Source: Planctomycetota bacterium (lineage in GTDB: Bacteria > Planctomycetota > UBA8742 > UBA2392). Taken from it: 64,000 nt of DNA. A program made the position numbers and the translations under genes. Position 1 is the first letter of the stretch, and the number at the start of each line of letters is the position of its first letter. Below are positions 46,958-52,719 of this stretch, piece after piece. The notes beneath the pieces are model-generated. The model was not told the DNA's origin and did no database searches. It saw only the letters and a program-made list of their open reading frames with translations. Location of the stretch: positions 1-64,000 of the forward strand of contig JAGQRH010000007.1 of assembly GCA_020425605.1 (NCBI GenBank), read 5' to 3'.

Positions 46958-48166
46958 ATGCCCGCAGCAAAGATCATCATGTTCTCGGACGGCGTGTCGG
47001 AATCCAACCGGCTTGCCAAGGAAGCGCTTGAAGCGCACCACATGTCCTGGAACGAGCGGAACATTTCGACCGACGCGGATGCGAACGCCTTCATTCGAAA
47101 ACTATGCGGCGCACCGGTTTCACCCGTGCTGTATGTAAACGATGAATGGCTGCCGGACCCCACGCAGGAAGAACTGCTGGAAGCAACCGGCGTTCGCTTT
47201 GACATTGAAGGGCTGGAATCGCGCGGCCAGACGATCTTCGACGTAGTGGTCGTCGGTCTTGGCCCGGCCGGTCTTGCGGCCTGCCACGGTTGCCGTCTCG
47301 GTGGACTAAGCGTGCTAGGCCTGGATGAAAATGAGCCGGGCGGCCACCTGCTGCCACTGACGGATGTGGACGAGTATCTCGGCGTCGGCTTTGACGAGCC
47401 GGTGCCTGGTGCAGACATCGCGGCCAACTTCAGCGAGCACGCCCGGCACGTCGGCGCGACACTGATGCGCGGCAAGGTTAACAGCATCCGAATCCAGGGC
47501 GCGTTCAAGCGAGTGCACAGCAGCGCCGGCAACTTCTGGGCCCGCGCGGTGGTGATCGCTACCGGCGCCGCACAGCGCGAGCTGAAAATCGAAGGTGTCG
47601 AGAAGTTCATCAACCGCGGCATTCGCTACGGCGCACAGGTGGATGCGCAGATCTACTCTGACCGCCGCGTGGCCGTGATCGGCGGCGGCGACGAAGCCAT
47701 GCACGCTGCGATCTTCCTCAGCCGCTTCGCCAAGTTCGTTACAGTGCTCTGCCCCGACGATGAGCCAACCGCTGAGCCGCTGCTGGTTGAGCGCGCACAG
47801 GGCCAGAAAGTACGCATCATCCCCGGCACCAAGGTGGTAGCCGTGAAGGGCGACGACGCGCTGGACTTCCTGTTTTTCGTTGAGAAGGGCATACCCGAAG
47901 AGCAGGGCCTGCCGCTGGATGCGGCCGTGGTCGCACTCGGCCCCGCGCCGAAGACGCCAATCCCGGGCCTGGAGCGCATGCCGCAGGACGAGGGCTATTT
48001 CGCGCACGGTGAAGGTGGCAAGACCATGTTCGGCGGCATCTACGTCGCGGGCGACTGCACCAACATCGACACCCGCACGCTCATGAGCGTCGTGGCCTCA
48101 GGCAGCCTGTGCGCCAAGCGCCTGTGGCAGTGGCTCGCCAGCCACCCGCTGCCGAAGCTTAAATAG
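46958..48166 (+). CDS. glutaredoxin-like + thioredoxin-reductase-like flavoprotein lacking both CxxC motifs
   Basis: A 402-residue protein. Residues ~1-80 look like a glutaredoxin domain (AKIIMFSDGVSESNRLAKEAL..., PVSPVLYVND) but the CPYC position reads DGVS. Residues ~93-402 are TrxR-like: FDVVVVGLGPAGLAA (FAD), VIATGAAQRELKIEGVEKF, VAVIGGGDEAMHAAIFL (NADP) and IYVAGDCTN. Where TrxR has YCATCDG this has YGAQVDA (residues 224-230), so both redox cysteines are gone. The FAD and NAD(P) sites look intact. It may be a YumC- or YpdA-like reductase, or act on another acceptor. The gene at 48242 on the same strand is hutH. Confidence 0.8.
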   Translation: MPAAKIIMFSDGVSESNRLAKEALEAHHMSWNERNISTDADANAFIRKLCGAPVSPVLYVNDEWLPDPTQEELLEATGVRFDIEGLESRGQTIFDVVVVGLGPAGLAACHGCRLGGLSVLGLDENEPGGHLLPLTDVDEYLGVGFDEPVPGADIAANFSEHARHVGATLMRGKVNSIRIQGAFKRVHSSAGNFWARAVVIATGAAQRELKIEGVEKFINRGIRYGAQVDAQIYSDRRVAVIGGGDEAMHAAIFLSRFAKFVTVLCPDDEPTAEPLLVERAQGQKVRIIPGTKVVAVKGDDALDFLFFVEKGIPEEQGLPLDAAVVALGPAPKTPIPGLERMPQDEGYFAHGEGGKTMFGGIYVAGDCTNIDTRTLMSVVASGSLCAKRLWQWLASHPLPKLK

Positions 48167-48241: not shown

Positions 48242-49774
48242 ATGGCCAAACCGAACACACTGATACTCGACGGCAAGTCACTGACACTGACGCAAGTGGA
48301 CCGCTTTCTGCATGGCGGATACTCGTGCGTGGAAGTCTCGGCCGGGGCGCGCTCGGCCGTGCGCAAGGCGCGCAAGTTTGTCGAAAAGTTGCTGAAAGAG
48401 CACCGGCCCGTCTACGGCGTAAACACCGGCTTCGGCAAGCTGGCGAACATGCGCATCCCGGATGCGGACCTGGGACAGCTCCAGACCAATTTAATACGCA
48501 GCCATTCGTGCGGCGTCGGAGAGCCGCTGCCGGTTGAAACCGTGCGCCTGGCGATGGTGCTGCGCATCAACAGCATCGTACAGGGCAACTCGGGCGTGCG
48601 CGAAGAAGTGGTCGACGCGCTGGTCGCGATGCTCAACAGCGAGGTCGTGCCGTTCGTGCCCAGCAAGGGCAGCGTCGGCGCGAGCGGTGACCTGGCCCCG
48701 CTGGCGCACATCGCGCTGGCGCTGCTGGGTGAAGGCAAAGTCTGGGTGAAGGGCAAGCTGGTCGGCGCGCCGGCCGCGCTGAAGAACGCGAAGCTGAAGC
48801 CGATCGAGCTGCAGGCCAAGGAAGGGCTGGCGCTGATCAACGGCACGCAGATCATCCAGGCGATCGGACTGCGCACCATCTGCGGCATGCGGCGCTGGAT
48901 CAAGCTGTGTGACGCGGCGGCGGCGGTCAGCCTGGAGGCTCTGCGCGGCAGCGATTCGCCGTTTGACCCGCGCGTCGCTGCGATTCGCCCGCACCCCGGC
49001 CATGGGCTGGTTTCGCGCAACATGCTGAAGATGTTGAAGGGTAGCCAGATCCGCGAAAGCCACCGCGAAGGCGACGAGCGTGTGCAGGACGCCTACAGCC
49101 TGCGCTGCGTGCCGCAGGTGCACGGTGCCGCGCGCGACGGCTTCGATTTCGTGCAGACCATTTTCGAGCGCGAGCTGAACGCCGTCACCGACAACCCGCT
49201 GCTGTTCCCGGACGACGGCGACGTGATCAGCGCCGGCAACTTCCACGGCCAGCCGCTGAGCCAGGCGCTGGATTTTCTCGCGATCCTGATGAGCGAACTG
49301 GGCGCGATCTCGGAGCGCCGCACAGAGCAGATGGTGAACCCGGACCTGTCCAACCTTCCGCCGTTTCTCGTGGAAGGCAGCGGACTGAACAGCGGGCTGA
49401 TGATCGCGCAGGTGGTCGCGGCCGCGCTGGCCAGCGAGAACAAGGTCTTCAGCCACCCTGCCAGCGTGGACAGCATCCCGACTTCGGCGAACAAGGAAGA
49501 CCACGTCAGTATGGGCGTCACGGCCGCGCTGAAGGCGATCACGATCTATGAGAACCTGCAGCACCTGCTGAGTATCGAGCTGCTTGCGGGGCGCCTCGCG
49601 CTTGACTACCACAAGCCGTTGAAGGGCGGGAAGCTGGTGGAAGACGTGGTGAACGCGTTGCGCAAGCGTGTGAAGCCGCTGAAACAGGACCGTGTCCTGC
49701 ACGAAGACTTCGCCAATATCCGCAGCCTGGTTAATGACGGCATGCTGGATGCCGTCCTGTCGAGACTGGAGTAG
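48242..49774 (+). CDS. hutH: histidine ammonia-lyase
   Basis: Deaminates histidine to urocanate. 510 residues. The MIO electrophile forms from Ala-Ser-Gly in GSVGASGDLAPLAHIALALLGEG; YGVNTGFGKLANMRI supplies the catalytic Tyr, and INGTQ, the TDNPLLF segment, and GNFHGQPL are present. The FHGQPL/MVNPDLSNLPPFL context favours HutH, but tyrosine- or phenylalanine-type aromatic ammonia-lyases share these motifs, so the substrate is probable rather than certain. No hutU, hutI or hutG is adjacent, which is unusual for a histidine-utilisation gene. Confidence 0.88.
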   Translation: MAKPNTLILDGKSLTLTQVDRFLHGGYSCVEVSAGARSAVRKARKFVEKLLKEHRPVYGVNTGFGKLANMRIPDADLGQLQTNLIRSHSCGVGEPLPVETVRLAMVLRINSIVQGNSGVREEVVDALVAMLNSEVVPFVPSKGSVGASGDLAPLAHIALALLGEGKVWVKGKLVGAPAALKNAKLKPIELQAKEGLALINGTQIIQAIGLRTICGMRRWIKLCDAAAAVSLEALRGSDSPFDPRVAAIRPHPGHGLVSRNMLKMLKGSQIRESHREGDERVQDAYSLRCVPQVHGAARDGFDFVQTIFERELNAVTDNPLLFPDDGDVISAGNFHGQPLSQALDFLAILMSELGAISERRTEQMVNPDLSNLPPFLVEGSGLNSGLMIAQVVAAALASENKVFSHPASVDSIPTSANKEDHVSMGVTAALKAITIYENLQHLLSIELLAGRLALDYHKPLKGGKLVEDVVNALRKRVKPLKQDRVLHEDFANIRSLVNDGMLDAVLSRLE

Positions 49775-49777
49775 GCC

Positions 49778-50467
49778 CTAGTAGCGCTCCGATAGCTTAC
49801 CCGGCTTGATGCAGCTCTTCCCCTTGTTGCGCTTATCGCTCACGATGTTTGAAACGGTGAAATGCGTCAGCCACTCGTCCGGGCACGGGCGCAGCAGCGC
49901 CCTGAGGGCATCCGGCTCCGTCTTGGGGTCGAGCCACGCATCATAGTCGGCCGGGTCAAGAATGCAGCCCATGCGGTGATGCAGCTTTGCCATCTTCGCG
50001 TTCGGCTGGCATGTGATCACGAGAAAGCTGTCGATGGTGACGCCGACGCCGGAATCCCAGTGATCGTATAGACCCGCGAACGCCAGTGGTTTGCCGTCAG
50101 CATGGCGGATGCAGTGAGGCTGCGGCTTCAGTTTGCCGGGCGTCCACTCATACCAGCCGGTGGCCGGCACTATGCAGCGACGCTGGACAAATGACTCACG
50201 GAACATCTTCTTCTCGTCCACCGTCTCGGAGCGCGCATTGATCGGCTTCTTTGCGAGCGCCGAGTCCTTCTCGGTTGACGGTACCAATCCCCAGCGCAGT
50301 TCCACGAGCTTGCGTTTGCGCCCACCCACCACGCAAAGCGCATCCTCGTGCGGCGCCAGGTTGTAGCGCGGCTGCCAGTTCTTGATGAGCGCCGCGGCCG
50401 GCTTCACGCCGAATAGCGAAAGGAATTCCGCCAGGTCTGGAGGGTCCTGAATGAGACGTCCGGGCAT
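49778..50467 (-). CDS. SRAP (HMCES/YedK) family protein with catalytic Cys2 replaced by Pro
   Basis: A 229-residue SOS-response-associated peptidase-fold protein. Family members use Cys2 to make a thiazolidine crosslink to abasic sites in single-stranded DNA. Conserved here: Asn36 in PRYNLAP, RWGLVP, NARSETV, RCIVPATGWYEW (Glu107) and HHRMGCIL (His163). However, the N terminus reads M-P-G-R, not M-C-G-R, so the crosslinking Cys is missing; no in-frame upstream start restores it. GGAG precedes the ATG. It is the last gene of the operon running from mrp, 14 bases after a small unknown gene. Confidence 0.9.
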   Translation of the reverse strand: MPGRLIQDPPDLAEFLSLFGVKPAAALIKNWQPRYNLAPHEDALCVVGGRKRKLVELRWGLVPSTEKDSALAKKPINARSETVDEKKMFRESFVQRRCIVPATGWYEWTPGKLKPQPHCIRHADGKPLAFAGLYDHWDSGVGVTIDSFLVITCQPNAKMAKLHHRMGCILDPADYDAWLDPKTEPDALRALLRPCPDEWLTHFTVSNIVSDKRNKGKSCIKPGKLSERY

Positions 50468-50481
50468 GGGCGCTCCGGTGT

Positions 50482-50763
50482 TCAGCCTGCGGCGATTTCC
50501 GACAGGCGAATAACCTCAGCGATCTCGGCGGCCGGCACAGAGACCTGCGGGATGCGGGGCCAGTGTCCCCACTGGGCTGCCGTCTTGACGTACTCGTCGT
50601 TGGTCTTGCCGTCCTGCCCTTCGTCGTGCTTGTCGGCGTCGTTCAAGAAGATGGCGTGAGGCGTCTGCGTGTCGCAACGGCCGATGTAGACCGCGCTGCC
50701 GGTCGTGCGAACGACGACCGTAATGCCGTGCAGAGCGCCCTTGTCTGAATGAAATGTTCCCAT
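50482..50763 (-). CDS. small protein with Sm/SH3-like barrel look (tandem paralog)
   Basis: A 93-residue protein. GITVVVRTTGSAVYIGRCDTQTPHAIFLNDADKHD and VSVPAAEIAEVIRL give the strand-turn-strand and final strand of a small five-stranded barrel. It shares with the preceding gene (50766-51107) the spaced motifs GRC, GHW and P.A.I, so the two look like tandem paralogs. I do not recognise the family by name. It starts two bases after the preceding stop and is in the mrp operon. Unknown function; binding of a polar ligand or RNA is a guess. Confidence 0.65.
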   Translation of the reverse strand: MGTFHSDKGALHGITVVVRTTGSAVYIGRCDTQTPHAIFLNDADKHDEGQDGKTNDEYVKTAAQWGHWPRIPQVSVPAAEIAEVIRLSEIAAG

Positions 50764-50765
50764 GA

Positions 50766-51107
50766 TCAATCCTGCTCTTCCGCGGCCGGCTGGGCGGCAG
50801 CCAGGTCCTGGGTGAATTCGCCCGATTGGTCCTTCCATGGCTCCTTCACCAGCAACTCCATGCGCGTGATGTCGGCCTTGGGGATGAATACTTTCTTGAT
50901 CACGGACCAGTGGCCCATGCTCAACGCGGCCTCGAGCTTCTCGACGTTCTTGTCCCAGGCGCCGTGAAAATGGTCGAGGTCGACCATGATCAGGTTGTCC
51001 TTCTCAAAACGCGAGCAGCGCCCGACGAACGTCTGGTCGAGCTTCGTCTCCACGACACAGGTCTTGCCGTGGAATTCCTTCAGGCGCTTTGCGGGGTCCT
51101 GTTCCAT
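50766..51107 (-). CDS. small protein with Sm/SH3-like barrel look (tandem paralog)
   Basis: A 113-residue protein. GKTCVVETKLDQTFVGRCSRFEKDNLIMVDLDHFHG suggests a strand pair of an Sm-like barrel; GHWSVIKKVFIPKADITRMELL matches the C-terminal part of the downstream gene. The last ~25 residues are acidic and probably disordered. The ATG at 51105-51107 overlaps the bacilliredoxin stop by one base (TAATG). The open frame reaches 51374 only antisense-like within the bacilliredoxin gene, so it is rejected. Function unknown. Confidence 0.65.
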   Translation of the reverse strand: MEQDPAKRLKEFHGKTCVVETKLDQTFVGRCSRFEKDNLIMVDLDHFHGAWDKNVEKLEAALSMGHWSVIKKVFIPKADITRMELLVKEPWKDQSGEFTQDLAAAQPAAEEQD

Positions 51108-51523
51108 TACAGCTTGACGTAGAGGTTGCTCAGGTGCTCGGCGACGGATTCCGGGTGGCCGCCTTCGAACACGTGGCGTGGAACGTAGCTGGCCGGCTGG
51201 CCCTGCTTGAACAGGTATACGCTCGGGCTGCTTGGCGGTGCCTGCGGCACGAGGCTGCGAACGTAGTTGCAGGCGTCCGTGTCGTTGCCAGCGAAGCACG
51301 TGCCGACCGCATCCGGCTTCTTGTCGCCTTCCAGCGAAAGAAGAATACCCGGACGTGCGGCGCCGGCCGCACAACCGCAGACTGAGTTCACGATTACCAT
51401 CGCGTTCTTGTCCTTGTTGCGCTCGAGGAAGTTCTTCACGTCGTCGGCCGTGCGCAGCTCTTCAACACCGTTGTCTGCCAGCTCGGCGCGCATCGGGGCG
51501 ATCATCTCTTCGGGGTATGGCAT
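51107..51523 (-). CDS. BrxA/BrxB-family bacilliredoxin (CGC motif)
   Basis: A 138-residue thioredoxin-like protein of the YphP/YqiW (BrxA/BrxB) family. The N terminus MPYPEEMIAPMRAELADNGVEEL and the redox motif VNSVCGCAAGAARPG (Cys49-Gly-Cys51) are characteristic, as is the ending HVFEGGHPESVAEHLSNLY. In Firmicutes these reduce mixed disulfides of proteins with bacillithiol, so the organism may make bacillithiol; biosynthesis genes are not in view. AAGGAG before the ATG. It is the second gene of the operon, 12 bases after mrp. Confidence 0.9.
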   Translation of the reverse strand: MPYPEEMIAPMRAELADNGVEELRTADDVKNFLERNKDKNAMVIVNSVCGCAAGAARPGILLSLEGDKKPDAVGTCFAGNDTDACNYVRSLVPQAPPSSPSVYLFKQGQPASYVPRHVFEGGHPESVAEHLSNLYVKL

Positions 51524-51535
51524 CGTTCGTTCTCC

Positions 51536-52594
51536 TTATGCGTTCGCCGGCTGTGCCGACGCCGCGTGAATTGCAATCTGTTGGGCTACCTTGTGGCTGG
51601 CCGCGCGCAGGGCTGTAGATGCAGGATCCTGCGGCTCGGCTTTCAGCAACGGAGTGCCTCCGTCGCCTGCTTCAACGACTTTTACTGTCAGCGGAATTCC
51701 GCCGAAGAAGGTGATTCCATACTTCTCGGCCGCGCGCGCACCGGCGCCGTGGCCGAAGATGTCAGTCTTTTCGCCGCAGTGGCCGCACACAAAGCCGCTC
51801 ATGTTTTCGATTACGCCGAGCACCTGGATGTTCACGGTCCCGAACATGCCGATGGCGCGCTGCACGTCCGCAAGCGCAACATCCTGCGGGGTTGTCACGA
51901 TTACAGACACACCCTGCGGCACCATGCGGCTGAGCGATAGCTGCACGTCGCCCGTGCCGGGCGGCATATCAACGACCAGATAGTCGAGCTCGCCCCACTC
52001 CACCTGACCGAGAAACTGGCGAAGCGCAGAATCCAGCATCGGGCCGCGCCAGATAACCGGCTGTCCCTCTTCCAGCAGAAAGCCCATCGACATCAGCTTC
52101 AGCCCGAACTTCTCGTGCGGCGTGATGCGCTTGTCCTCGCTGGCGGCCGGCTGGTGATGAATGCCGAACATCGTCGGCATGCTGGGGCCGTATATGTCGC
52201 CGTCGAGCAGACCGACGCTGGCGCCGGACTCAGCGAGTGCGATGGCGAGGTTCGCTGCCACGGTGCTCTTGCCAACGCCGCCCTTGCCACTGGCGACGAA
52301 GACCACGTTGCGCACGCCGGGAATCAGGTCGCTGGCGGTCTGCATGCGGCTGGTGTCCGCACTGAAATTGACCTTCACGTCCTTGGCGCCCAGCTTGACG
52401 AGGGCGGCCTTCACTTCGCCGCTGATCTGGTCTTTGAGCGGGCAGGCCGGGGTGGTCAGCTGGACGGTCAGCTCAACGTTCGCGCCCTCGGACTTGATCG
52501 CCTTGATCATGCCGAGCTCAACCAGGTCCTGTTTCAGGTCCGGGTCCTGCACGCCCTTGAGGGCCGCCTTGATGTCGTCTTCGGTCCAGCTCAT
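51536..52594 (-). CDS. Mrp/ApbC/NBP35-family iron-sulfur carrier ATPase
   Basis: A 352-residue P-loop ATPase that carries or transfers Fe-S clusters. An N-terminal MIP18-like domain (DIKAALKGVQDPDLKQDLVELGMIKAI) is followed by the deviant Walker A VFVASGKGGVGKSTVAANLA, LLDGDIYGPS, VDMPPGTGDVQLSL, and the C-terminal cluster motif CGHCGEKTDIFG (CxxC). GGAG precedes the ATG at 52594; the frame is open to 52660 but without similarity. It heads a five-gene operon of bacilliredoxin, two small paralogs and the SRAP protein. Confidence 0.93.
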   Translation of the reverse strand: MSWTEDDIKAALKGVQDPDLKQDLVELGMIKAIKSEGANVELTVQLTTPACPLKDQISGEVKAALVKLGAKDVKVNFSADTSRMQTASDLIPGVRNVVFVASGKGGVGKSTVAANLAIALAESGASVGLLDGDIYGPSMPTMFGIHHQPAASEDKRITPHEKFGLKLMSMGFLLEEGQPVIWRGPMLDSALRQFLGQVEWGELDYLVVDMPPGTGDVQLSLSRMVPQGVSVIVTTPQDVALADVQRAIGMFGTVNIQVLGVIENMSGFVCGHCGEKTDIFGHGAGARAAEKYGITFFGGIPLTVKVVEAGDGGTPLLKAEPQDPASTALRAASHKVAQQIAIHAASAQPANA

Positions 52595-52719
52595 GAAGCT
52601 CCGCTCTAGCGCGCCATCCCTACTCGTCCAGAGACTAGATTGCGGACCATTTTTGTCCACTATAGGCCATCTCGTTCAGCCGGGCGCCCGAATCTGCCGA
52701 TGATTTGCGGGGTTCGCGC

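Follow-up and report, generated by a model that had tools for sequence, protein, structure and literature searches.

Proteins of the SRAP family are defined by a cysteine at position 2 that has been described as absolutely conserved (PMC3765255), and it is through the stable adduct formed by this residue that the family is known to protect abasic (AP) sites at replication forks. The reaction of YedK begins with an attack of the residue 2 alpha-amine on the AP aldehyde, after which the thiol closes a thiazolidine, with Glu105 and His160 acting in opening the abasic sugar and in driving Schiff-base formation (PMC9436759). When the Cys2 thiol is missing, YedK cleaves AP-DNA instead of crosslinking stably to it; the C2A variant works as an AP lyase by means of its N-terminal amine, its Schiff base has been trapped and solved, and its lyase activity is slowed 25-fold by E105Q and 2.5-fold by H160Q (PMC9436759). 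The Fpg/Nei family lyses AP sites through the secondary amine of an N-terminal proline, such as in mycobacterial Nei2 where the mature enzyme lacks Met1 and Pro2 is essential for AP lysis on single-stranded DNA (ssDNA) (PMC11323726). The Nei2 P2A and P2C variants have lost nearly all lyase activity (PMC11323726), indicating that activity depends on how the N-terminal residue fits into the pocket. A literature search, with most subscription papers outside it, found neither a natural Cys2-less SRAP nor any activity measurement on a Pro2 SRAP, whether natural or a C2P mutant.

Analysis of a 64,000 nucleotide stretch of contig JAGQRH010000007.1 from a Planctomycetota bacterium (GCA_020425605.1; the window) identified a SRAP gene opening with ATG CCC (open reading frame from 50467 to 49778, reverse strand), the product of which begins MPGRLIQ and matches the Pfam SRAP profile PF02586 with E = 2.6e-60 and 204 bits compared to the curated cut-off of 27.1 (Table 1). 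The start was unambiguous as no ATG, GTG, or TTG codon occurs in frame in the 16 codons open before an upstream stop and GGAG precedes the ATG by 5 nt. With no usable upstream start the Pro2 call stands, and the replacement of Cys2 by Pro in a SRAP/HMCES-family protein, claimed by an earlier sequence-only reading of the window, was borne out, with the same CCC codon present in the loci L106 and L107 of two other species. The genome is a draft metagenome-assembled genome (MAG) of 86% completeness, which favors an artifact of sequencing or start site concealing a true Cys2 protein, but two or more substitutions separate CCC from TGC or TGT, Pro2 and its codon recur in two other, independent assemblies, and no Cys occurs among the first 44 residues. 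A base-call error was therefore excluded in practice, and an artifact of either kind was rejected as having virtually no chance of being true.

Table 1. Features of the Pro2 SRAP gene and its neighbors in the window.
Feature	Position	Strand	Evidence or remark
Histidine ammonia-lyase (HAL) family gene	48242..49774	+	Convergent with SRAP, ends 3 bp from SRAP
Cys2-less (Pro2) SRAP/HMCES/YedK-family gene, 229 aa	49778..50467	-	Open reading frame, Pfam, AlphaFold2 model
His163 codon, counterpart of YedK His160	49979..49981	-	Alignment; invariant in 45 sequences
Glu107 codon, counterpart of YedK Glu105	50147..50149	-	Alignment; invariant in 45 sequences
Asn77 codon, counterpart of YedK Asn75	50237..50239	-	Alignment
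Codon 2, CCC (Pro) replacing the Cys codon; expected N-terminal residue after Met1 removal	50462..50464	-	
GGAG, probable ribosome-binding site, 5 nt before ATG	50473..50476	-	Read from sequence
Gene Y, 93 aa, no Pfam family	50482..50763	-	14 bp upstream of SRAP start
Gene X, 113 aa, paralog of Y	50766..51107	-	Start overlaps bacilliredoxin stop
Bacilliredoxin (PF06491)	51107..51523	-	Context only
Mrp/ApbC-type P-loop Fe-S protein	51536..52660	-	Context only

The AlphaFold2 model of the window SRAP, built from a 45-sequence alignment, had a pLDDT of 93.5 and a pTM of 0.90. It gave 21 PDB matches at E <= 0.001, of which the named ones were HMCES, YedK, and structural-genomics SRAP entries, including 8d2m, the Schiff-base complex of YedK C2A with abasic DNA. 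TM scores were 0.82 against HMCES 6oeb and 0.75-0.80 against YedK. Active-site residues were matched using the YedK numbering of PMC9436759, and the invariance of Glu107 and His163 refers to the 45-row alignment A2. Both residues, along with Gly3, were kept in all three aligned Pro2 proteins, and the pocket arginines Arg4, Arg79, and Arg165 in all five aligned Cys2-less proteins described below. Asn77, the residue contacting residue 2, was found within this group in the window protein only, being Phe in the other Pro2 proteins (G006 and G011) and Lys in the two Thr2 proteins (G007 and G009), which also carry Asp in place of Glu107. The retention of the active site claimed earlier thus held for Glu107 and His163 and failed for Asn36, which is the Asn of the RYNLAP motif, the catalytic Asn being Asn77.

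By profile, fold, Glu/His, and Asn the window protein is a SRAP, sharing with YedK and HMCES (PF02586) the full-length domain, the predicted fold, Glu, His, Gly3, Arg4, and the pocket arginines. It differs in having Pro2 rather than Cys2, and the thiazolidine crosslink cannot form as there is no Cys2 thiol; judged on residue 2 and its clade-wide loss, it would not be a crosslinking SRAP of the HMCES/YedK type. The earlier description of a Cys-less, otherwise conserved SRAP without a crosslink was consistent with these results, with a real SRAP, Glu and His kept, and no thiazolidine expected.

A survey of orthologs for Cys2 versus Pro2 showed the nearest ones to be likewise without Cys2. Pro2 SRAPs with 43-45% identity to the window protein and the same CCC at codon 2 were encoded in G006 (L106) and G011 (L107), which represent two other species of the same Planctomycetota family, and SRAPs with Thr2-Cys3 (N-terminus MTCRLSQIVD) were encoded in G007 (L090) and G009 (L091). 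In a tree of 80 SRAPs, the three Pro2 and two Thr2 proteins formed one clade with support of 100/92, the same five members were grouped with residues 2-4 removed (SH-aLRT 95), and all 75 other proteins had Cys2. That the Cys2-less clade is genuine was considered close to certain. The Thr2 proteins resemble the window SRAP in their lack of Cys2 and in their place in the tree, and differ by Thr2, Cys3, Asp for Glu107, Lys for Asn77, and an internal TGA in the G009 copy. The simplest history would be a single loss of Cys2 in the clade ancestor, after which either Pro2 or Thr2 may have arisen first. A Cys2-less SRAP was present in 5 of the 16 genomes of the family. Cys2 SRAPs from other branches of the tree were also present in the window genome (G000), G006, G011, and G009, and none was found in G007 (88% complete), such that four or more of the five genomes combine a Cys2-less SRAP with an ordinary Cys2 one.

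Searches beyond the clade matched the Pro2 pattern in three of 392 Planctomycetota genomes, namely the window genome, G006, and G011 (a reversed control gave no matches), and in none of the 189 genomes covered from the phylum to which a Myxococcales MAG belongs. A species-wide scan with the stretches MPGR[LI]IQD and CIVP[IA]TGW, which are this clade's own so that Pro2 SRAPs with other flanks could escape it, returned the two known Pro2 loci and L108, which has Cys2. A phage or plasmid source was rejected: ten of ten full-length phage or plasmid SRAP homologs that were read had Cys2, and 2.9 million viral contigs held at least 104 distinct full-length Cys2 SRAPs and no real SRAP with the Pro2, Ala2, Ser2, or Thr2-Cys3 pattern (chance matches 3, 8, 2, and 0, respectively). 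With other phyla thinly sampled, the Pro2 SRAP was provisionally assigned to one Planctomycetota family. Another Planctomycetota genome, G028 (loci L013, L027, L101, and L102), gave six SRAP matches, of which the four that were read had Cys2, suggesting that the family has expanded in that lineage.

The Cys2-less genes are under purifying selection, with dN/dS of ~0.16 for the G006/G011 Pro2 pair and ~0.14 for the G007/G009 Thr2 pair by the Nei-Gojobori method, which is approximate at such divergence (dN 0.22-0.23 across the pairs; dS 1.35 and 1.57, respectively). The Pro2 proteins are nevertheless diverging faster than their Cys2 paralog, with identities between G000 and G006 of 45% versus 74%. 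An in-frame TGA interrupts the Thr2 copy of G009 (L091) and the reading frame is intact in the other four of the five clade genes.

Given Pro2, the intact Glu and His, and the chemistry of YedK and Nei2, the most reasonable reading of the window SRAP is that of a candidate AP lyase, and we give an even chance to its being a natural AP lyase and a selectively maintained paralog. We infer Met removal, AP-site binding, a Schiff base, and lyase activity as follows. Methionine aminopeptidase, to whose family the M24 peptidases encoded in the window genome belong, would take off Met1 and expose Pro2, and Glu107 and His163 would open the AP deoxyribose in ssDNA. The secondary amine of Pro2 would then attack C1', forming an iminium (Schiff-base) intermediate, and, with no thiol for thiazolidine closure, beta-elimination would resolve the intermediate and allow the protein to turn over. 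The Pro2 SRAP would in this way act like Fpg/Nei and YedK C2A, alongside the Cys2 SRAP of the same cell, a possible survival of the chemistry via the proline amine that the sequence-only reading left out of account. That reading had proposed a "self-reversing glutamate branch," which found no support as reversal presupposes a thiazolidine. An Fpg-family protein is encoded in the window genome, and the Pro2 SRAP would therefore not be the only AP lyase of the cell.

The closest counterpart is YedK C2A (8d2m), which has the same fold, an N-terminal amine without a thiol, and the Glu and His, and from which the window protein (25% identity) differs in that its N-terminal amine would be the secondary one of a naturally occurring Pro and not the primary one of an engineered Ala. 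As in Fpg/Nei including Nei2, which acts on ssDNA, a gene-encoded Pro directly follows the initiator Met and would be expected to attack C1' of the AP site; unlike in Fpg/Nei, the fold is that of a SRAP without homology to them, and the proposed mechanistic likeness would be convergent. The broader proposal that this lineage turned SRAP from a suicidal crosslinking protector into a turning-over AP lyase by a Cys to Pro change, convergent with Fpg/Nei on an unrelated fold and beside a Cys2 SRAP, is plausible at somewhat less than an even chance.

Several features count against a lyase. As the Nei2 P2A and P2C variants show that N-terminal residues cannot be swapped at will, the proline may be wrongly placed in the SRAP pocket to react. 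The active site drifts inside the Cys2-less clade (Asn77 replaced, Asp for Glu), and the divergence of the Pro2 proteins outpaces that of the Cys2 paralog. The maintenance of Arg4, Arg79, and Arg165 in all five Cys2-less proteins despite the drift at Asn and Glu, together with purifying selection on their genes, would suit a non-covalent binder of abasic sites or ssDNA that shields, recognizes, or competes for AP sites, its amine chemistry being blocked by Pro2. This role was considered fairly unlikely, as Glu107 and His163 with their known catalytic role are kept in all three Pro2 proteins and loss of the thiol alone leaves YedK C2A an active lyase (PMC9436759). Also possible is a dispensable paralog, jobless since the loss of Cys2 and drifting to decay while the Cys2 paralog does the work, as suggested by the patchy presence (5/16 family genomes), the faster divergence compared to the Cys2 paralog, the Asn and Glu changes in sister proteins, and the TGA in the G009 copy. 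Decay is distinctly unlikely in view of dN/dS of ~0.15 between pairs whose dS exceeds 1, reading frames that are intact in 4/5 genes, and a Pro2 codon unchanged over long divergence with Glu and His retained alongside Pro2.

Since the first nucleophile in YedK is the N-terminal amine and not the thiol (PMC9436759), Pro2 might still crosslink for long periods, with the iminium or a later adduct protecting the AP site and the function unchanged. Thiol-less YedK gives cleavage and no stable crosslink (PMC9436759) and the N-terminal Pro of Fpg/Nei leads to elimination (PMC11323726), making a lasting adduct very improbable.

What is new at this locus is a constrained, clade-level loss of the crosslink-defining residue within the known SRAP family. 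A maintained Cys2-less clade with Pro2 members keeping Glu and His corresponds in nature to the laboratory C2A mutant, and through it one can test directly whether exchanging a single N-terminal residue converts a protector into a cutter. Labeling every SRAP as a DNA crosslinker, as the GO terms of some records do, can be wrong.

Comparison of the genomic neighborhood showed that the order RibBA-TrxB-like-HAL, a gap, and Y-X-bacilliredoxin-Mrp-PBP-epimerase was conserved across the genus. The gap between HAL and Y was empty in G001, G004, and G005, held a Cys2 SRAP of another subfamily in the opposite orientation in G002 and G003 (L115 and L116) with no remnant of the Pro2 gene, and held the Pro2 SRAP in G000, where it follows Y at 14 bp in the same orientation and cotranscription with Y is likely. 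The Pro2 genes of G006 and G011 were located elsewhere, each next to a gene that encodes a large Ig-domain protein. The operon with Mrp and a bacilliredoxin that had been offered as a functional clue was not conserved in the congeners, G006, or G011, and a functional operon was rejected; the neighbors are uninformative on SRAP function. The HAL-Y gap (49774-50482) has received two unrelated SRAP insertions at one site. Genes X and Y (50482-51107), with ~30% identity and no Pfam match, were kept beside bacilliredoxin and Mrp throughout the genus, and an extra X-like copy was present in G006 and G011. The TrxB-like flavoprotein (46958-48166) has a pyridine-nucleotide-disulphide oxidoreductase domain from residue 94 only, and its N-terminal part, without domain assignment, reads like a thioredoxin/glutaredoxin-type domain.
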